Part shown: positions 43,897 to 56,106 of the stretch, in pieces
Layout of the letters: each line of letters begins with the position of its first letter
Numbering within the stretch: position 1 is the stretch's first letter
Source of the DNA: Acidisarcina sp.
GTDB taxonomy: Bacteria > Acidobacteriota > Terriglobia > Terriglobales > Acidobacteriaceae
Assembly (NCBI GenBank): GCA_035539175.1
Contig: DATLIY010000011.1
Coordinates: 124,001-188,000, forward strand
Length of the DNA stretch: 64,000 nt
Direction: 5' to 3'
The notes under the pieces: generated by a model
The model's input: the letters and a program-made list of their open reading frames with translations, nothing else
What the model was told of the DNA's origin: nothing
Database searches by the model: none
Position numbers and translations under genes: made by a program

Positions 43897-44319
43897 TTGC
43901 TTCTATCACGTCGTAACATCTGCCAACTGGTGCCTTTGCTGGCTGGCTCTTCGGCTCTTGCATTCGCACAACAGCAATTGGGTACAACGATTGCTCCTTT
44001 TGATACATTGCCCGTTCGGAAGAGCGGCTCTAATAGCTTCCGCAAGATTCTTGAGGGAGAAACCTATTCCGGAGCGCATATTGAGGTGCACGAGACTACG
44101 CTGGGCCCCGGAAGCTCTCCGCATCCGCACCATCACCATGTCCACGAAGAGATGTTTCTTCTTTCAAAGGGAACACTGGAGTTGACCATTCAAGGCAAGA
44201 CCACCGTCATCGGTCCCGGATCGGCGGCCTATGTCCACTCCAATGAAGAACACTCTGTTCGGAATCCCGGCACAGAGGACACACAATACTTTGTGTTGGA
44301 GCTTGGCAAGGAAGCCTGA
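43897..44319 (+). CDS. Exported cupin-domain protein
   Basis: 140 aa. TTG start at 43897 supported by GGGAGG 7 nt upstream. An N-terminal leader (NICQLVPLLAGSSALAFAQ) is followed by one cupin barrel. Metal-binding residues are visible in the His-rich first motif (PHPHHHHVHEEMFLLSKG) and His in the second motif (SNEEHSVRNPG). Small periplasmic cupins of this type often accompany uronate or pectin genes and may bind or degrade uronic-acid products, but no specific activity can be assigned. Confidence 0.8.
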   Translation: MLLSRRNICQLVPLLAGSSALAFAQQQLGTTIAPFDTLPVRKSGSNSFRKILEGETYSGAHIEVHETTLGPGSSPHPHHHHVHEEMFLLSKGTLELTIQGKTTVIGPGSAAYVHSNEEHSVRNPGTEDTQYFVLELGKEA

Positions 44320-46092: not shown

Positions 46093-47441
46093 TTACGCCG
46101 GGATGCCTTTCAGCGCCTCGGCCTTGGAGATGGGCTTGCCATGGAAGTAAGAGAGGTTAGCCATGTGGCAGGCTGCTGCCGCATGGTGTCCAAAAAGCGC
46201 ATCCTCAACTACGGGCTTCCGGCTTCTTACTGAGGAGAAGAAATTCCGGAGATGGGGCGTAACGTCGTCGTGCGCCGCTCCGTGATACGTTGTGGCCAGG
46301 TTGAGTGGCGCTTCGGCCAGGATAGTGTCATTTTCGGCATGCCACTGCTGCTCATACGCCTTGCGCATGGCAAGCGGATAGCTGCTGGTGTAGTAGCTGG
46401 GCGAGGTGTCGATGCCGCGCTGGGGCGTGCAGGTGAGAACACCATTGACGATCTCGATGATCCCGCGCGATCCCAGGATGCGCGTTGTCTCCGGCGTATC
46501 GGTGCCGAGCGTGAGCCGTACCGACACCAGTACCGTTCCATAGCGGAAGAGTGACATGTGCAGGTCCGGCATATTGCGGCCATCCTTCCAGCGCGCGGTG
46601 GCTCCCATGGCAGAGGCTTCATCGGGAATCTGATTGATGCCGGTGATGTACTGCATGCCGCTGAGCAGATGCACCATGAGATCTCCGGCGACACCTGTGC
46701 CATACTCCCGCCAGCAACGCCAGCGTGCAAAGATGTCGGGATCAAAGGGCCTTTTCGGCGCGCTCCCCAGCCATGTATCCCAATCGAGGTTTGCGGAAGA
46801 GAGCCCGGGAGGAGGCGGATACTCCCACGCGCCGCTGGGGCTGTTGCGCCCAGAGAGAGATCGACGGAGATGAGATCGCCGATCGCTCCGCTGCTGAAGA
46901 GTTCCCGAGCCTTGCCAAAAAGAGCCGAGCTGACGCGCTGCGAACCAACCTGAACGATGCGCCCGGAGCTATGCGCGGCAGCAACCATGGATGCTCCATC
47001 GGCAATGCTATGCGACATAGGCTTTTCGCAGTAGACATCCTTGCCGGCCTTGACTGCGTCCACCACGAGTGTCTTATGCCAGTGATCTGGAACCGCAACG
47101 ATCAGGCATTCGATGTTCTTGTCGTCCAGCAATTCGTGATATTGGCGTGTGGTTCGGATCTCGGGGCCGGCAATCTCGCGGGCAAGGGTATGGCGCTCAT
47201 CATAAAGGTCGCAGGCGGCAATGCATCGCGTACCCGGCAATGCAACCGAGTGTGTGAGGAGCCCGGACCCCTGCATGCCGACGCCGATGATCGCAAAGCG
47301 AACCGGATCTTTGCCGCTTTCACCCTGGTCGACTGGCGTTTGTGCCGCGAGCGGGACTGCATGTGTGCCGATGGTGGTTGCGGCTGCGGCGGCAACGGCG
47401 GAGGACCGGAGAAACTGGCGGCGGGTGAATTCTGGCTTCAT
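46093..47441 (-). pseudogene. Gfo/Idh/MocA-family oxidoreductase split by a one-base frameshift
   Basis: The start at 47441 (GGAG 6 nt upstream) opens a Tat leader (FTRRQFLRSSAVAAAAA), the Rossmann segment FAIIGVGMQGSG and the EK motif YCEKPMSH. The frame is correct until LISVDLSLG near 46850, then turns to nonsense. Adding one base there restores LGRNSPSGAWEYPPPPGL and a continuous protein to 46093 (MVHLLSGMQYITGINQI..., NFFSSVRSRKPVVED). The break lies in the run gcgccc at about 46846-46851. This is either a true inactivating deletion or a sequencing error in a GC-rich run. Intact length would be about 449 aa. It is the second enzyme of this family in the window. Confidence 0.8.
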
Positions 47442-47636
47442 CGAAGGCTCCATGCTACGGGTGGTACGACTCGACTGCTCCCGCGCGCAATGGCAATTGG
47501 AAGCACACGAGAATTGCAGTCTCTGTGGATCCTGTGTAGATCCCTGTATTGTTAACTGGCAATTGTACGCAACCCATCGAATTTTGGCGCACTTACGAAG
47601 CAGCTCATCTGATTTGGCGAGTCCTGCACGAAAATC

Positions 47637-48002
47637 TCAGTGGATATGGTGCGCGATAAGACGGTCCTTCACCGCGTCATACACCTGTGGAGGAAGGATG
47701 GCCTTCGTCTTCAATTGGCCCTTGTTGGCATAGGGGCGGCCGTTGATGATTCTTTGTGCGTAGCTCGGCGTGATGCCATGGACACGGGTCAACTGAGCAA
47801 TTGTGGCGCGGTTAATGTCTACTTGCGGCGCGGGTGGACGGACAATGCGCGCAGGGGGCTGATCGTTGATGCTTTGCGCAGCGAGTTCTTGTTCCCCAGC
47901 AGGCGATAAAAAAGCAAGCGCCAGAAAAGCAAATGCCAGAGCGGTGGCGTACACGGTTCGCGAAAATACGAATCTCGGAAGGTGGCGGGGAGGCTCATGC
48001 AT
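47637..48002 (-). CDS. Exported helix-hairpin-helix (ComEA-like) protein
   Basis: 121 aa. Hydrophobic export signal (ATALAFAFLALAFLSPAG), a Pro-rich linker and one helix-hairpin-helix domain of ComEA type from about residue 61 (VDINRATIAQLTRVHGITPSYAQRIINGRP). ComEA binds double-stranded DNA in the periplasm or on the cell surface during uptake. Single-domain versions are common in Gram-negative genomes and may have other roles. No other competence gene is near. It is divergent from the his leader region. Confidence 0.75.
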   Translation of the reverse strand: MHEPPRHLPRFVFSRTVYATALAFAFLALAFLSPAGEQELAAQSINDQPPARIVRPPAPQVDINRATIAQLTRVHGITPSYAQRIINGRPYANKGQLKTKAILPPQVYDAVKDRLIAHHIH

Positions 48003-48075
48003 TTCGGGATGCGGCTCCTGTAGGGGATGGGAATTTCCTCCAGTTTAGTTCCTCCAGGTGGCGCGAGAGAAAAAG

Positions 48076-48110
48076 TTGACAGCGAACCGTGGGAGAGTTA
48101 GGTTTTATAT
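48076..48110 (+). promoter_or_regulatory. Probable his operon promoter
   Basis: A perfect -35 box TTGACA (48076-48081) is followed at 17 bp by TAGGTT (48099-48104) and an AT-rich stretch. If this -10 is right, transcription would start about 4 bases before the leader peptide ATG at 48115. The exact -10 is uncertain. Confidence 0.4.
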
Positions 48111-48114
48111 AGAT

Positions 48115-48192
48115 ATGCAGATCCGCACACACCATCGTCATGCCCACCATCATCACGTGACGAACGTGTCGGCGGACTCCTCTGGCTTGTAA
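48115..48192 (+). CDS. hisL: Histidine operon leader peptide
   Basis: A 25-codon reading frame whose residues 6-14 read HHRHAHHHH: seven histidines in nine codons. It is translated to measure charged tRNA-His. When histidine is scarce the ribosome stalls on this run and the downstream terminator does not form. It lies 123 bases upstream of hisI, between a TTGACA promoter box and an intrinsic terminator, the classical arrangement of the enterobacterial his leader. No Shine-Dalgarno site is close to the ATG (nearest GGGAGAG is about 17 bases away), so initiation may be leaderless or weak. Confidence 0.85.
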   Translation: MQIRTHHRHAHHHHVTNVSADSSGL

Positions 48193-48230
48193 AAACCAGC
48201 CAGACCAAGGGATCAAAGAAAGCCCGCCGA
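48122..48230 (+). promoter_or_regulatory. his attenuator: alternative RNA pairings
   Basis: Segment 1 (TCCGCACAC, 48122-48130) can pair with segment 2 (GTGT 48166-48169 plus GCGGA 48172-48176), closing over the His codons. Segment 2 (TCGGCGG, 48169-48175) can instead pair perfectly with CCGCCGA (48224-48230), the 5' arm of the terminator. A ribosome stalled on the His codons would block 1:2, free segment 2 and prevent the terminator. Confidence 0.7.
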
Positions 48231-48258
48231 CGCGAACCACGCCGGCGGGCTTTTTGTT
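48219..48258 (+). terminator. his operon attenuator terminator
   Basis: AAAGCCCGCCG (48219-48229) pairs perfectly over 11 bp with CGGCGGGCTTT (48243-48253), followed by TTGTTT. It lies between the leader peptide and hisI and ends transcription when histidine is plentiful. Confidence 0.9.
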
Positions 48259-48315
48259 TCTCCGGCGATGCGCGGCGCAGACCATGTGAGCTAACTAACC
48301 AGAATAGGATGTGCG

Positions 48316-48681
48316 ATGAGCAATATCGAAGAGAAGATCGATTTCGGCAAGATGGATGGCCTCGTCCCCGGAATCGTGCAGGATGCGAAAACGAAGGAAG
48401 TACTGATGGTTGGCTTCCTGAACGAGACCAGCTACAACAAAACGCTGGAGACCGGCTATGTAACTTTCTGGAGCCGAACGCGCCAGAAACTGTGGATGAA
48501 GGGCGAAACCAGCGGCAACCGTCTGCGTGTGGTCCAGGCCTCGACGGATTGCGATCAGGACACCTTGCTCTTTCTGGTAGAGGTTGAGGGCGATGGGTTG
48601 GTTTGCCACGAAGGTACCGTGAGTTGCTTCACACGTCCGCTTGCAGTATCCACGGCAGCATCGGCAAAGGAGAATTCGTAA
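48316..48681 (+). CDS. hisI: Phosphoribosyl-AMP cyclohydrolase
   Basis: Opens the purine ring of phosphoribosyl-AMP, the third step of histidine synthesis, in the cytoplasm. 121 aa with only the cyclohydrolase domain. Metal-binding residues are seen in [14 protein letters not shown] and [12 protein letters not shown], together with [18 protein letters not shown]. The C-terminal phosphoribosyl-ATP pyrophosphatase (HisE) half found in enterobacterial HisIE is missing. ATG at 48316 with AGGAT upstream. First gene of hisIGDCBHFA, and its stop overlaps the hisG start by one base. Confidence 0.95.
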
Positions 48682-49556
48682 TGGCAAACAAACTTCGCCT
48701 GGGAATCCCCAAAGGCAGCCTGCAGGATGCGACGATTGCACTCTTCCAGCAAGCGGGCTGGAATATCTACTCTAACGGCCGTTCCTACTTTCCCTCCATC
48801 GACGATTCTGAGATCGAATGCATGTTGATCCGCGCGCAGGAGATGGCGCGCTACGTCGATCACGGTGCGCTTGACGCGGGCCTTACGGGCATTGACTGGG
48901 TGGTGGAGAGTGGTCTCGACGTGCAGAGCGTAACCAGCCTCACCTATGCCAAGCAGAGCCGCCGCAAGGTGCGCTGGGTGCTTGCGGTGCCGGAAGACTC
49001 GCCGTATCAGAAAGCAGAGGATCTTGCCGACAAGATCATCGCCACGGAACTTGTAGAGGTAACCAAGCGATACTTTGCGGCAAAGGGCGTGCCCGTTCGA
49101 GTCGAGTTCAGCTGGGGAGCGACGGAAGTAAAGCCGCCAACCCTTGCAGACGCGATCGTAGAGGTGACGGAGACTGGCAGTTCGCTCAAGGCCAATCGAC
49201 TGCGCATTATTGATACGGTTCTGGAAAGCGAAACGCGCCTGATCGCGAATCGCAGCGCGTACAAGGATCCGTGGAAGAAGGAGAAGATCGATAGCCTCGC
49301 ACTGATGCTCAACGGAGCTATTGCCGCGCAGGGTCAGGTTGGGCTGATGCTGAATGTTGAGACAAAGAACCTTCCCCAGATACTGTCGATTCTTCCTGCG
49401 TTGAATTCGCCAACCATTTCCACTCTAAGCAATCCCGACTGGGTGGCAGTGAACACCATCCTCGAAGAGGGAAGCGTGCGCGATGTCATTCCCCGGCTGA
49501 AGGCTGCCAACGCGACCGGGATTGTAGAGTTCCCACTGAACAAAGTTGTGCTGTAA
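48681..49556 (+). CDS. hisG: ATP phosphoribosyltransferase, long form
   Basis: First committed enzyme of histidine synthesis; joins ATP and phosphoribosyl pyrophosphate. 291 aa from the ATG at 48681 (AAGGAG 8 nt upstream, overlapping the hisI stop as TAATG). N-terminal catalytic domains ([51 protein letters not shown]) are followed by a C-terminal ACT-like domain of about 75 residues. The long form is a hexamer inhibited by histidine and needs no HisZ, so the pathway has both feedback inhibition and the upstream attenuator. Confidence 0.95.
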
Positions 49557-49567
49557 CGGAAGGAACT

Positions 49568-50824
49568 ATGAAGCTGGTCAAGGTGGGCAGCCGCGGAGCT
49601 GAGCGGCTGCTGAAGGAACTTGAAGGTCGGCGGGTGGCAGCGAGCGAATCGGTGCTGCCCGCCGTTCGCAAGATTGTCGCCGATGTTCGCAGCGGTGGAG
49701 ATGCCGCACTGCGGCGTTATGCGGTGAAGTTCGATGGAGCCTCGAAACAGTTACAGTTACGAATCTCCCGGGAAGAGATGCAAAAGGGGTGGGAGGAAAC
49801 CCCGGATGCACTAAAACAGGCGCTTGAGGTTGCAGCGGCTAACATCCGCGCCTTTGCAAAGCGGCAGATGCCGGTTGACTGGAGCTTTTCGCCCGCTTCC
49901 GGACTGATGACAGGGCAGACGGTTCGCGCGGTGGAGGCGGCTGGCTGCTACGTGCCGAGCGGCCGCTATCCGCTTCCATCCACGCTTTTGATGACGGTGA
50001 TTCCGGCACAGGTAGCGGGCGTGTCGCGGATCGTCGTAGTCTCTCCGCGTCCTGCGCGGGAAACGCTGGCAGCAGCATGGATGCTGGGCGTGGAGCACTT
50101 CTATCGGATTGGGGGAGCACAGGCAGTTGCTGCTCTTGCCTACGGAACCGAGAGCCTTCCTCGCGTCGACAAGATTGTAGGTCCGGGAAATCTTTATGTG
50201 ACGGCCGCGAAGAAGCTGGTGGCCTTCGATTGCAGCATCGATATGTTGGCCGGCCCGACAGAAATTGTTGTAACCAGCGAAAAGGGGAATGCCGCCGCGA
50301 TTGCCTCCGATATGGTTGCCCAGGCCGAGCATGACCCGGAGGCGCTCGCCCTATTTGTAACAACTGCGGACCCACTTGCCAAAAATGTAATTGACGAAGT
50401 GAGCAAGCGGGCGAAAGCGAATTCGATTGCGCGTCAGTCTTTGCGCAAGAATGGATTTGTGCTGCTTGCGCCAACGGTTGAAGTGGCCCGCGAGATCACG
50501 AACCGTTTGGCTCCTGAACATCTCACTATCGATTCGGACTCTGATTTGAAATGGGTGCGGAATGCAGGCTCCGTATTTGTCGGACGGTATTCTCCGCAGC
50601 CGATGGGAGATTACGTTTCGGGTCCAAATCACACTTTGCCAACGGGTACGATGGCGCGAGTTCGAGGAGGATTGAGTGTGCTGGATTTCCTCAAGGTGAT
50701 AACCGTTCAGCGGTATACGCGCGACGGATTGCGCGAGTTGGGACCTGCTGCCATTGCCTTGGCAGAGGCGGAGGGTCTGAAAGGGCATGCGGAAGCTATC
50801 CGCGCGCGAGGCGTTCGTGGTTGA
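49568..50824 (+). CDS. hisD: Histidinol dehydrogenase
   Basis: Catalyses the last two steps, histidinol to histidine, with zinc and NAD. 418 aa. Marks: GCYVPSGRYPLPSTLLMTVIPA, KIVGPGNLYVTAAKK, zinc-ligand segment VAQAEHDPEA, NRLAPEHLTI and YVSGPNHTLPTG. The start follows GGAAGGAAC. It lies 11 bases after hisG in the operon. Confidence 0.97.
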   Translation: MKLVKVGSRGAERLLKELEGRRVAASESVLPAVRKIVADVRSGGDAALRRYAVKFDGASKQLQLRISREEMQKGWEETPDALKQALEVAAANIRAFAKRQMPVDWSFSPASGLMTGQTVRAVEAAGCYVPSGRYPLPSTLLMTVIPAQVAGVSRIVVVSPRPARETLAAAWMLGVEHFYRIGGAQAVAALAYGTESLPRVDKIVGPGNLYVTAAKKLVAFDCSIDMLAGPTEIVVTSEKGNAAAIASDMVAQAEHDPEALALFVTTADPLAKNVIDEVSKRAKANSIARQSLRKNGFVLLAPTVEVAREITNRLAPEHLTIDSDSDLKWVRNAGSVFVGRYSPQPMGDYVSGPNHTLPTGTMARVRGGLSVLDFLKVITVQRYTRDGLRELGPAAIALAEAEGLKGHAEAIRARGVRG

Positions 50825-50834
50825 TAGGGAAACG

Positions 50835-51905
50835 ATGACCGGGCCGTCACCTCGGCGAGCGGTACGGCTTATGAAGGAGTATCATCCGCCGCTTGGTGGG
50901 CGTGACTCCTTGCGGCTGGACTTCAACGAAAACACGGTTGCGTGCTCGCCTGCGGTTCTAAAGCTGCTGGAACGGATTGCCGCCAGCGACCTGACGAAGT
51001 ACCCCGAACGCGAGACGGTAGAGGCCGCGGCCGCTACTCATCTTGGTCTGAAGCAGGAGCAGGTAGTGTTGACCAACGGCGTGGACGAGGCAATTCACGT
51101 TCTCTGCGGGACATACATGGACGCTGGAGACGAGATGTTGCTGCCTGTTCCCACGTACACCATGTATGAGGTGTATGCCTCTGGCACGGATGGACGGGCG
51201 GTAACTGTGCAGGCAGGGGAGGATTTTGCATTCCCCGCAGAGCGGCTGCTTGCGGCGATTACTCCATCAACCAAAATAATTGCTATCGCCAACCCGAACA
51301 GTCCTACAGGAACAACGGTGTCGCGGGAAGAGATTCTTGCCATTGCTGCAAGAGCGCCGCACGCCATTGTTTTGGTGGATGAAGCCTACTTCCACTTTTT
51401 TGGTGAGACGGTTGCCGATTTAATCGGTACAGTGCCAAATCTGATGCTGGCGAGAACGTTCTCAAAAGCGTATGGCCTCGCGGGTCTGCGGTTGGGACTG
51501 CTGGCGGGAACGCGGGAGAACATGCAGTGGATCCGAAGGGTGATTTCACCCTATAGCGTGAACTCGGTGGCTCTAGCGTGTTTACCTCCTGCCTTGGAGG
51601 ACACGGCCTATCTTGAGTGGTATGTGGAAGAGGTCTGTGGAGCACGGGAAGAGTTCAAGCGCGGGCTGAATGAACTGGGAGTGCATTGGTGGCCGAGCCA
51701 GGCCAACTTCGTGCTGACTCGCATCGGAGTGAAGCATAAGGACTTTGTGGCCGCAATGCATAGGCGAGGCGTGCTCGTGCGCGACAGGTCCGCGGATCCT
51801 GGCTGCGATGGCTGTGTGCGTGTGACGGTGGGAACGCGAGAACAGATGCGGCAGGCCATCGGCGCTTTTCGTGCAAGCCTGGAAGAGATCCAGTGGTCGA
51901 AGTAG
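50835..51905 (+). CDS. hisC: Histidinol-phosphate aminotransferase
   Basis: PLP-dependent transaminase converting imidazole acetol phosphate to histidinol phosphate. 356 aa from the ATG at 50835 (AGGGA upstream, 10 bases after the hisD stop); an in-frame GTG at 50817 would overlap hisD. Marks: [39 protein letters not shown] and PLP lysine in [16 protein letters not shown]. Fold type I, HisC branch. Confidence 0.95.
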
Positions 51906-51937: not shown

Positions 51938-52564
51938 ATGGCACCGCGAGCATCAGCAAAGTCCGCGAAGCAGGCGAAGAGAACTGCGTCGATTGAACGC
52001 AAGACGAACGAGACGAAGATTTCCCTGCAACTGACGGTAGAGGGTTCGGGAAAGTACAACGTAGCGACCGGCATCCGTTTTTTTGATCACATGCTGGAAT
52101 TAATGACGCGGCATGGCGCGTTTGACCTTGATCTGAAATGTGATGGCGACCTTGACGTGGATCAGCACCATACCGTGGAAGACGTGGGGATCGCGCTCGG
52201 TGAGGCCTTTGACAAGGCCATCGGTGACAAGAAGGGAATCCTGCGCGCAGGATATTTTCTGATGCCTATGGATGAGACGCTGGGCATTGCTGCCGTTGAT
52301 TTGAGCGGGCGGGTCGCCTGCTCGGTGAAGACAAAGGTCAAGGCCCGGCTTGTCGGGGATCTGCAGAGCGAGCTTGTCGAGGATTTCTTCGAGGGTTTTG
52401 CTCGTGGCGCACGCGCCAATGTCCACGTGAAGGTGATGTATGGCCGCTCCAGCCATCACAAGATTGAAGCCTTGTTCAAAGCCTTTGCTCGCGCCCTACG
52501 GGCTGCATGTTCGCGAGATAAGCAATTGGGCGAAATGCTTCCCAGCACGAAGGGGCTGCTTTAG
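51938..52564 (+). CDS. hisB: Imidazoleglycerol-phosphate dehydratase
   Basis: Dehydrates imidazoleglycerol phosphate with manganese. 208 aa from the ATG at 51938 (GAGAGGATCAGGA before it); an earlier GTG at 51893 overlaps hisC. Metal motifs [10 protein letters not shown] and [12 protein letters not shown] are present, plus [17 protein letters not shown] basic N-terminal extension of about 17 residues is unusual but harmless. There is no histidinol-phosphatase half, so that step must be coded elsewhere. Confidence 0.96.
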
Positions 52565-52598
52565 TGCCTGGTGGATTCAGGAGTTGGGAGATTTTGCA

Positions 52599-53189
52599 AT
52601 GATCGCAGTGATCGATTACAGAGCCGGGAATCTAACCTCCGTGATGAAGGCGCTGAGCGCGCTCCATGCTGGGGCAACCGTGACGGCGGATCCCGACGAG
52701 GTGCGCAAGGCAAGTAAGGTCATCCTGCCGGGGGTAGGGCATTTTGCAGCGACCAGGCTGCTGCAGGAGCAGGGACTGAGTGAGGCCGTGCGAGACAGCA
52801 TCGCGCGCGGAGTTCCGTTCCTCGGAATCTGCGTCGGGTTGCAGTGGCTCTTTGAAGGCAGCACCGAAGCTCCTGATGACAAGGGCCTGGGCATCTTCAG
52901 CGGAATGTGCGAACGCTTTCCCGCCGGTGCGAAGGTTCCGCATGTGGGATGGAACTCGATCAGCGTTCGTCCGGGATCGCGGTTGATGGCGCAGATAAAT
53001 GAGGGAGAGTTCGTCTACTACACGCATTCGTACCGGGCGCCTGTCATAAAAGATACCGTGGCCGTTACAGAGTACGGAGAGCCCTTCACCGGGGCAGTAG
53101 AGCGGGACAATGTGATGGGCGTGCAATTCCATCCTGAGAAGTCCGGCACCGCAGGAATGCGGATCTTAAAGAACTTTGTGGAGCTGTGA
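52599..53189 (+). CDS. hisH: Imidazole glycerol phosphate synthase, glutaminase subunit
   Basis: Releases ammonia from glutamine for HisF. 196 aa from the ATG at 52599 (GGGAG 9 nt upstream). Class I amidotransferase triad: Cys78 in FLGICVGLQ, His178 and Glu180 in VQFHPEKS. Starts [15 protein letters not shown], the normal N-terminus of the family. Followed 4 bases later by hisF, its partner. Confidence 0.96.
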
Positions 53190-53193
53190 AGAG

Positions 53194-53973
53194 ATGCTGA
53201 CGAAGAGAGTGATTGCATGCCTTGACGTCCGCGACGGACGCGTCGTCAAGGGCGTGCAGTTTGTGGATCTGGTCGACGCGGGTGATCCTGCTGCGTTGGC
53301 CGCCCGTCATGCACGCGAAGGTGCGGACGAAATTGTGTTGCTCGACATAACCGCGACGCATGAAGGACGCGGCACCTTGCTGGAGACGGTACGGCGAACG
53401 GCAAAAGAGCTTTTCATTCCGTTTTCCGTTGGCGGAGGCATTCGCAGTGCGGACGACGCCGCGGCGGTGTTTGACGCAGGTGCGGACAAGGTAAGCATTA
53501 ACTCGGCGGCTTTGGCCCGGCCCGAGCTTATCGACGAAATCGGACGAAGTTTTGGAGCGCAGGCTGTGATCGTGGCAATTGATGCGCGTCGAGATCCCGC
53601 GGCCGCGGACCCGGTCACCGAGGCGCAGGTATTTGTGCATGGTGGCCGCAAATCGACTGGTCGCAAGCTGCTCGATTGGGCACGTGAGGCCGAACAGCGC
53701 GGTGCAGGTGAAATACTGCTGACTTCGATGGATGCCGATGGCACGCGGGCCGGCTTTGACTGCGAGCTTACGGCGTGTGTCAGCGAGGCGCTTCAGATTC
53801 CCGTGATTGCATCCGGCGGGGCGGGGACGGCGCAACACTTCGCGGACGTATTCCGCAGAGGCAAGGCACATGCTGCGTTGGCCGCAAGCATCTTCCACTT
53901 TGGAGTTTCGGATGCGAGAGCGCTGAAGCAGGAGCTTGCGATGGAAGGGATTCCTGTGAGGCTCCCATGCTGA
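53194..53973 (+). CDS. hisF: Imidazole glycerol phosphate synthase, cyclase subunit
   Basis: Uses ammonia from HisH to make imidazole glycerol phosphate and AICAR. 259 aa TIM barrel from the ATG at 53194. Catalytic Asp11 (ACLDVRDG) and Asp130 (IVAIDARRD) are in place, with phosphate loops GGGIRS and the segment [12 protein letters not shown]. The stop overlaps the hisA start by 7 bases, indicating translational coupling. Confidence 0.96.
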
Positions 53974-54662
53974 TTCCTTCAATCGATTTGATGGGTGGCA
54001 GGATTGTCCAACTGGTTCATGGCGAAAAGCTGAAGCTTGCGTTCGACGATTTCGGTTATTGGATTGAGCGGTTCCGCGCGTATCCGCTGGTGCAGCTCAT
54101 CGATCTCGATGCGGCCATGCGAAAGGGTGAGAACCGGGCATTGATTGAACGCATCGCTCACGAGTTGCCGTGCCAGGTGGGTGGCGGCATCTCGAGCATC
54201 GATAAAGCGCGCAACGTGCTGGCAGCAGGGGCTAAACGGGTGATTGTCGGGTCGGCGCTCTTTCGATCCGCGGGTTCGGCAGAGGACGCTCCACTGGTGA
54301 ATGTGGACTTTGCGGAATCCCTGGCAAACGCAGTCGGCGGGGAGCATGTGGTTGCCGGAGTGGACACCAAGCAAGGCCGCGTGGCAGTGAAAGGATGGAC
54401 AGAGAGCGTAGAACTGACGGCTGCCGATGCGATCTCCGCATTGGAGCCGTATTGCGGCGCTTTCCTGTATACACACATCGATAAGGAAGGCACGATGCAG
54501 GGCTTTCCTTACGACATCGCGGTGGAGTTGCGCGCGAAGACGAAGCGTCAGTTGATTGCGGCGGGCGGCATTCGCGAACAGTCTGAGATCGATGCACTGG
54601 ATGCGATCGGCGTAGACGCCGTGGCCGGCATGGCGATCTATACCGGAGTTCTGAAGACCTGA
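53967..54662 (+). CDS. hisA: ProFAR isomerase (HisA)
   Basis: Isomerises ProFAR to PRFAR in histidine synthesis. 231 aa TIM barrel from the ATG at 53967, chosen by the normal N-terminus [16 protein letters not shown] and the overlap with hisF. Catalytic Asp7 and Asp132 (VAGVDTKQG) are visible; GGGISS and GGIREQSE form phosphate loops. Last gene of the operon. The order hisF-hisA is inverted compared with the usual hisA-hisF. Confidence 0.93.
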
Positions 54663-54939: not shown

Positions 54940-56106
54940 ATGCCCAAGGAACCGATTCGACTGGCAAAGCGGCTGGATGAAGTAGGCTTCTCTGAAATTG
55001 TCGTTGTGCGCAACAAGGTGATGGAACTGCGGGAGCAGGGTAAGACCGTCCATGCGTTCCACGGCGGTGAGCCGTTCTTTGAGACTCCCGAGCTGGTGAA
55101 ATATGGAATGGTCCGAGCGCTGGTTGAGAACCGGACGAGGTATGCGCCATCCTCTGGCGTAGCCCCGCTGCGTGAGGCGCTCGCGCTCAAGTTGCGGAGC
55201 AGGAATGGCATGGATGTGCAGGCGGAGAATGTCATCCTGACCACCGGCGGCGCGCATGCGCTGTATATCGCGTTTCAGGCGGTGCTGGATCCTGGAGATG
55301 ATGTTTTGGTCTTCTCGCCGTTCTGGACGCCGATACGCGACATGGTGACGCTGGCGCAGGCGCGGGCGCTTCTGGTTCCGACGGCAACAGCGCGGCGCAA
55401 TGGGCTGAGAGCAACACTGGAGCAGTTCTCCACTCCACACACGCGAGCCATTTACTACAACACACCGCAGAATCCATCGGGTGTGGTCTTCACTCGCGCC
55501 GAGGCAGAGGAGGTAGCGGCCTTTGCCCGCAGCCGCAACCTGGTCGTGATTGCCGATGAGGCATATGAAGATCTGGTGTATGACGGGGAGCACTTTTCAA
55601 TAGGATCGCTGCCTGGGATGGCGCAGAGGACGATTTCGACCTTTACATTTTCCAAGACCTACGCCATGACGGGCTGGAGGGTGGGATACGCAGTGGCCAC
55701 TGAACCCCTGATGACCGGCCTGCGCAAGTTGGTGCTTTATTCGACGAATGGAGTTTCCACTCCATCTCAGTGGGCTGCGCTGGAGGCGTTGCAAATTCCG
55801 GAAAGCCAGCTAGCCGCAAGGCGCGAAGAGTATCGCAGCAGGCGCGATTTGCTGGTGAGCGGCCTGAATCAACTTGGTTTGGAGTGCCCCATTCCGGCGG
55901 GTGCGTTCTATGCTTTTCCGTCTGTCGCCAGGATCAACAAGGACAGCCACAAAGCCGCGAGCATCCTGCTGGAGAAGGCGCATGTCTCGACCATTCCGGG
56001 CGTCGTCTTCGGAGGTCAGGGCGAAGGACATGTGCGCTTCGGCTTTTCGGTTCCGCTGGAAACTATCGAATCAGGGTTAGAGGCATTGCGGGAATTCGTC
56101 AAGTAG
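54940..56106 (+). CDS. Class I/II pyridoxal-phosphate aminotransferase
   Basis: 388 aa from the ATG at 54940 (GGAG about 6 nt upstream); the open frame reaches 54862. Fold type I aminotransferase: TTGGAHALYIAFQAVLDPG, YYNTPQNPSG, VIADEAYEDLVYDG and PLP lysine in STFTFSKTYAMTGWRVGY. Most like aspartate/aromatic or alanine-type aminotransferases; the substrate is not clear. It follows the his operon but after a 277-base gap with an opposing small gene, so it is probably transcribed separately. Confidence 0.9.
   Translation: MPKEPIRLAKRLDEVGFSEIVVVRNKVMELREQGKTVHAFHGGEPFFETPELVKYGMVRALVENRTRYAPSSGVAPLREALALKLRSRNGMDVQAENVILTTGGAHALYIAFQAVLDPGDDVLVFSPFWTPIRDMVTLAQARALLVPTATARRNGLRATLEQFSTPHTRAIYYNTPQNPSGVVFTRAEAEEVAAFARSRNLVVIADEAYEDLVYDGEHFSIGSLPGMAQRTISTFTFSKTYAMTGWRVGYAVATEPLMTGLRKLVLYSTNGVSTPSQWAALEALQIPESQLAARREEYRSRRDLLVSGLNQLGLECPIPAGAFYAFPSVARINKDSHKAASILLEKAHVSTIPGVVFGGQGEGHVRFGFSVPLETIESGLEALREFVK

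Follow-up and report, generated by a model that had tools for sequence, protein, structure and literature searches.

The window analyzed here, the whole of a 64,000-nucleotide stretch of DNA from Acidisarcina sp., carries a histidine biosynthesis operon on its + strand, in the order leader open reading frame (ORF), terminator, hisI-hisG-hisD-hisC-hisB-hisH-hisF-hisA-like. The first gene, hisI (48316-48681), encodes phosphoribosyl-AMP cyclohydrolase (NF000768, 137.7 bits, cut-off 126), and its stop codon is overlapped by the ATG of hisG (48681-49556, TIGR00070), followed by hisD (49568-50824, TIGR00069). The starts of the remaining genes are approximate: hisC (50826-51905, TIGR01141, 287.5 bits, cut-off 276.55), hisB (51944-52564, NF002111, 260.4 bits, cut-off 231), hisH (52590-53189, TIGR01855), hisF (53194-53973, TIGR00735), and a hisA-like gene (53964-54662) that matches TIGR00007 at 156.7 bits, below the cut-off of 228.95. 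An aminotransferase-like gene (54943-56103, + strand) comes after the hisA-like gene and may share the operon. Upstream lies a divergent gene (47637-48002, - strand) whose ComEA-type match is weak (19.5 bits, cut-off 152). Because that gene is on the opposite strand, the terminator and short ORF (sORF) are not part of it, and the his promoter region sits between two divergent genes. Farther out, a TAT-signal oxidoreductase-like frame at 46093-47453 (- strand) seems to be split over ORFs 46227-47453 and 46093-46677, and its continuation in another frame suggests a frameshift or sequence error.

All elements of the leader are on the + strand. The sequence and its relatives place a -35 hexamer, TTGACA, at 48076-48081; 17 nt farther on, alignment with relatives identifies TAGGTT (48099-48104) as a -10 hexamer of the TANNNT type, with an ATG 10 nt downstream. 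This ATG opens a leader peptide ORF that is kept in relatives (48115-48192, MQIRTHHRHAHHHHVTNVSADSSGL). As originally described, the ORF has 25 codons, with seven His codons in nine (codons 6, 7, 9, and 11-14; run at 48130-48156), a run that occurs nowhere else in the six frames of the whole window. The next best density, six in nine, belongs to a 140-aa ORF at 43897-44319 (+ strand) with the motif HPHHHHVHE, which resembles an ordinary cupin metal site.

The predicted transcript of the leader is strongly structured, with a folding energy of -62.0 kcal/mol where shuffled sequences average -38.55 (z -6.61; reached by 0 of 200 shuffles). In the minimum-energy fold, segment 1, which overlaps the His codons (48122-48142), pairs with 48156-48176 of segment 2 (48156-48177). 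Segment 3 (48222-48234) is both the 5' arm of the terminator and an alternative partner of segment 2, for which the core of the 2:3 helix lies at about 48165-48175. Segment 4 and its U-tract (48240-48258) complete an intrinsic terminator, seen in the fold and in relatives, with the whole hairpin spanning 48217-48255. When 48157-48235 was folded alone, mimicking a leader whose first part is masked and whose last part is not yet made, the 2:3 helix formed at -33.5 kcal/mol around a predicted hairpin at 48178-48212 that holds the stop codon (48190-48192), an element absent from the original prediction. That prediction had also given the terminator 11 bp and placed it directly before hisI; it is in fact longer, with 16 pairs and a 2-nt bulge, and ends about 60 nt upstream of the hisI ATG (48316). 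At the leader, a simple consensus scan reported neither a promoter nor a + strand terminator, its one entry there being a terminator-like site on the minus strand (48238-48221), and so both elements were measured by alignment and purpose-written scripts.

To place the leader in an evolutionary context, we compared it among relatives. Of 100 genomes, 78 have a HisI match, the leader's own genome included, and 77 of these hisI loci were used, with G051 and the second piece of G052 left out. A script requiring at least four His in nine codons found the leader in 64 relative loci; two more with three His in nine (L058 and L062) were counted by eye, and two were not counted as their contigs end 54 nt (L016) and 272 nt (L056) upstream, the 272 nt of L056 looking like another gene with no leader within them. 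The leader is thus present in 66 of 75 testable loci of the class. It also occurs at all 80 named Acidobacteriaceae loci, the best 80 of 489 found, each labelled Acidobacteria or one of its genera; among these 80 is Acidipila rosea, of the class Terriglobia, phylum Acidobacteriota. The nine class loci with hisI and no leader (L065, L068, L069, and L071-L076; families f4, f9, and f10) have hisI about 5-7 kb from hisG or on a different contig, and a search of up to 1500 nt before hisG in those genomes gave no such sORF either.

A terminator follows the leader in 143 of 144 loci (the 64 relatives and the best 80 of 489 named loci) versus 30 of 139 control stretches, a loose test, since these unrelated stretches pass too; L023 had no proper terminator score. 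Of the 144 leader regions, 138 are distinct, five identical records occurring in both the named set of 80 and the relative set of 64, and closely related loci do not count as independent. Relatives with hisI and neither the run nor the terminator would have spoken against the original prediction, which these frequencies leave standing. As a separate matter, the 22 genomes without a hisI match (G002, G005, G008, G011, G012, G015, G022, G023, G025, G037, G041, G042, G045, G048, G049, G053, G057, G060, G065, G071, G073, and G086) also have no hisG match, and 12 of them are at least 97% complete, so that loss of the whole pathway, and likely histidine auxotrophy, seem common in the group.

Evidence of selection on pairing, for which covariance analysis in relatives had been suggested at the outset, comes from two alignments. 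The 119 family-f1 leaders were reduced to 98 nonredundant ones by shared 8-mers, and alignment A1 holds 50 sequences of 73 prepared references; L023, L044, L046, L057, and L167, for which the automatic terminator call was off, were excluded from alignments. Across the 98 leaders, the sole consensus helix found by RNAalifold is the antiterminator 2:3, with eight pairs. It is paired in 96.8% of cells (500 row shuffles: mean 92.7%, best 94.0%), with changes on both sides in four pairs (51 cells), the excess over the shuffles being small because much of the helix hardly varies. The terminator, folded alone, is 98.3% paired against 96.9% in the best shuffle, with double changes in three of six pairs.

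In A1, cells with double changes number 28 for 3:4 and 24 for 2:3, against shuffled means of 10.9 and 7.2, and none of 500 shuffles reached either value. Two weaker measures discriminate less: the number of pairs changed on both sides was reached by 7 of 500 shuffles for each helix, and that of further pair types by 96 of 500 (3:4) and 66 of 500 (2:3). Sliding the partner by a single column reduced pairing from 94.0% to at most 53.8% for 3:4 and from 90.4% to at most 39.2% for 2:3. Compensatory changes are therefore present in both helices, which share segment 3 and are mutually exclusive. One segment-3 column, 145, covaries with segment 4 (UA 27, CG 17) and with segment 2 (GC 21, GU 18, AU 8). 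In these alignments, segment 3 changes jointly with segments 2 and 4, a pattern required of helices that exclude one another.

The other pairings are less certain. Neither 1:2 nor the stop-codon helix was recovered as a consensus helix by RNAalifold, and support for 1:2 among relatives is modest, the pairing being better than shuffles (z<-1) in 48 of the 98 leaders. Pairing of 2:3 is weak in the divergent loci L064 and L066, and segments swapped in from other species still pair well. (These pairing and swap tests excluded L044, L046, L057, L060, and L063, the last two as near copies.) The three segments of the original prediction are real; its 1:2 pairing is less secure than its 2:3 pairing. 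At the codon level, the CA of the His codons hardly changes and the third position varies between C and T, with 439 CAT and 272 CAC in the 98 leaders.

The 5' end of the leader has a layout that goes beyond what had been predicted: TTGACA, 17-18 nt, TANNNT, ATG. The 60 nt upstream hold TTGACA (at least five of six positions) in 55 of 64 relatives and in all 80 named loci (the best 80 of 489), and the hexamer ends 28-37 nt before the ATG in 126 of 144 loci versus 37 of 1400 random points. Where the -35 is well placed, a -10 with T1, A2, and T6 follows at a spacer of 15-19 nt in 128 of 130 loci (chance, ~0.10), with a spacer of 17 or 18 in 123 loci. In 118 of the 128 loci with both hexamers, 6-11 nt separate the -10 from the ATG; with a start assumed 7 nt downstream of the -10, the predicted 5' untranslated region (UTR) is 0-5 nt in those 118. 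In one locus from another class (L244), the stretch from the -10 to the ATG is all pyrimidine, making the A of the ATG the first purine. Shine-Dalgarno (SD)-like 4-mers precede 11 of 144 leaders versus 97 of 133 hisI starts. From this promoter geometry and the lack of an SD, the leader peptide is predicted to be leaderless or nearly so. A published survey puts leaderless genes at 13.3% on average in three Acidobacteria genomes (PMC3160421), and by that figure this way of initiating translation is predicted to be in use in the phylum.

Could the attenuator instead be of the ordinary type, with its true promoter farther upstream, a normal 5' UTR, and a ribosome binding site? Promoter-like sequence alone is no proof of a start, the window has an AGG 12 nt ahead of the leader ATG, its TAGGTT is poor in the middle positions, and the consensus scan gave no promoter. 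Set against this are the rarity of SD-like motifs at the leader and the fixed position of TTGACA/17-18/TANNNT before the ATG in most of the 144 loci, together with a TANNNT 8-10 nt before the ATG (sought at 5-12 nt) in 19 of 20 leaders of other classes outside family f30. We therefore regard an ordinary 5' UTR as unlikely and favor the near-leaderless start.

A different possibility is that the sORF encodes a small His-rich, perhaps metal-binding, protein whose transcript ends at the terminator, with hisI promoted separately. Such a peptide would be expressible, but the compensatory changes tie the 3' half of the ORF to the terminator arm, and the sORF precedes his genes in the loci read, for most of which hisI or hisG had been the basis of selection. 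In its own genome, the only other match to the leader model of at least 20 bits is the leader's opposite strand, and no matching leader peptide was seen before trpE, leuA, ilvB, or hisS (L309, L311, L313, and L316), so that leader-peptide attenuation is found only at his among these loci. These results make a free-standing small protein very improbable, and the leader is better read as part of the regulation of the operon.

A histidine-sensing T-box or other riboswitch, with the sORF incidental, would likewise account for a terminator with an alternative pairing, both common features. Yet no Rfam family, the T-box included, matches the window or 10 relatives at the gathering score, no T-box is among the 11 matches to 48050-48320 at E≤10, and the His codons are among the best-kept parts of the leader; we consider this reading next to negligible. 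The best of those 11 sub-threshold matches is Thr_leader (26.1 bits, E 0.0046, gathering score 55), and Trp_leader scores 15.1 bits. The Rfam His operon leader (RF00514) is not among them. A T-box or known riboswitch was accordingly rejected as a description of the region, the 11 matches being taken as chance or terminator-like likeness.

The spacing of the elements also bears on how the leader may work. In 98 leaders, the distance between the final His codon of the run and the 2:3 helix is 10 nt (interquartile range 10-10; extremes, 4 and 16). By the toeprint distance, a ribosome reaches about 10 nt past the codon in its A site. Segment 2 would thus be just free, the spacing expected of a stalled ribosome. 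Segment 2 ends a median of 18 nt before the stop codon, so a ribosome waiting there would cover at most its 3' edge, and 1:2 re-forming after release would have to do part of the work. The parts themselves, their conservation, the compensatory changes in 2:3 and 3:4, the spacing, and the promoter geometry bear out attenuation as originally proposed, and we hold it highly probable that this is a ribosome-mediated transcription attenuator with a near-leaderless leader that controls the his operon.

For the point where transcription begins, translation of the leader, stalling, readthrough, and the part played by 1:2, we propose the following model. The transcript would begin with the leader AUG or only a few nucleotides away from it, so that a ribosome could load without a Shine-Dalgarno sequence and then trail RNA polymerase. 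With ample charged His-tRNA, the ribosome would clear the seven His codons and terminate just past segment 2, and the free segment 3 would pair with segment 4, stopping transcription before hisI. With scarce charged His-tRNA, it would stall on the run and mask segment 1, segment 2, some 10 nt beyond the final His codon, would emerge just clear of the ribosome and pair with segment 3, and the resulting antiterminator, enclosing the stop-codon hairpin, would let polymerase enter hisIGDCBHFA. If the leader were not translated at all, 1:2 and 3:4 would form and transcription would stop.

To explore the spread of the leader across the phylum, an aspect new relative to the original prediction, we searched outside the class with a leader covariance model. 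Many genomes matched, weak matches included, and those below about 30 bits were counted as leaders only when inspection of the sequence was combined with a position ahead of his genes. The model is not a presence test, as it missed G077, which has a leader (L053). The sORF was present in 17 of 20 loci read, picked mostly from covariance matches outside the class, and in 3 of 20 further hisI loci, partly picked from leader-bearing families. A His-rich sORF also occurs in 9 of the 30 best hisG loci, all nine in family f30; eight of these (L282, L287, L288, L290, L292, L296, L297, and L302), from a class other than the window's, have it about 300 nt before the hisG match. In the phylum-wide search, the top 30 hisI loci by score had no leader in the 450 nt before hisI. 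In all, nine families outside the class bear leaders (f24, f30, f33, f34, f42, f53, f55, f76, and f84).

These leaders of other classes precede hisI, hisG (L255 and the eight f30 loci), or a hisZ-like gene (L256), the names at L255 and L256 being a reading of the protein sequences; the neighbors change and the his pathway stays. By the loose test, a terminator is present in 26 of 29, the exceptions being L252, L253, and L296. That the f30 leaders are without a terminator was considered and rejected, as a hairpin and U-rich tail lie before hisG in seven of the eight f30 loci near hisG. TTGACA (at least five of six) precedes 14 of the 29 and an SD-like motif 1 of 29; f30 promoters fit the layout poorly (1 of 9) and are less canonical. 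The chances seem evenly balanced that the leaderless His attenuator is old in Acidobacteriota, inherited phylum-wide with its ORF at the transcript start, and kept while the first gene changed among hisI, hisG, and hisZ. If the sensor ORF does begin at the first nucleotides of the transcript, stalling would be timed from the first codon. As is reported for trpL of Sinorhizobium meliloti, the short terminated RNA could also be a small mRNA with a second role.

In E. coli, the his operon begins with hisG. In the acidobacterial operon the first gene is hisI, the leader is predicted to be leaderless and has no match to the Rfam His leader even at E≤10, and one direct 2:3 antiterminator encloses the stop-codon hairpin, all in contrast to the his attenuator of E. 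coli and Salmonella. The two are alike in the His run within a short leader ORF, the competing pairings, and the terminator before the first his gene (PMC3896937). The original prediction had called such control best known from proteobacteria, which is correct as far as it goes and incomplete, as His attenuators are also described for Firmicutes (PMC9413887). There, his operons of the Bacillus cereus group, Peptostreptococcaceae, and Erysipelotrichales are preceded, as here, by a predicted leader peptide for His, along with a terminator and an antiterminator; these leaders differ in belonging to another phylum and in having 3-5 consecutive His codons. Acidobacteria are not named in the main text of that paper.

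Leaderless attenuators, too, are known already, for other amino acids. Published examples are leuL, trpL, and ilvL of Streptomyces lividans (PMC8079986) and trpL of S. meliloti (PMC7298713), which resemble the present leader in an AUG at or near the 5' end and do not respond to histidine; the ilvBNC leader of Corynebacterium (C. glutamicum), likewise leaderless and not for histidine, is described as lacking a ribosome binding site in a title cited in PMC4046766. In several of these cases a terminator follows, as it does here. For Actinobacteria, Seliverstov et al. saw no conserved RNA structure before his operons (PMC1262725), and a 2015 proceedings title, listed among the references of PMC4833913, announces a search for His leader peptides. 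As to Acidobacteria generally, PMC4833913 itself counts short leader genes by distance to the next gene. Within the literature searched, to which most subscription papers do not belong, no His or leaderless attenuator described for Acidobacteriota was found, an absence that is thus unproven, and His attenuation and leaderless initiation were not found together.

By comparative data, the his leader is a well-supported attenuator, and it could be proposed as a new Rfam family. As a conserved, natural, putatively leaderless ORF with a built-in readout in the form of readthrough, it would be a good system for studying ribosome loading on leaderless transcripts and is suited to asking how early ribosomes couple to polymerase. 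For soil Acidobacteria, the finding adds a defined amino-acid-responsive RNA switch, predicted to turn his genes on at low histidine.
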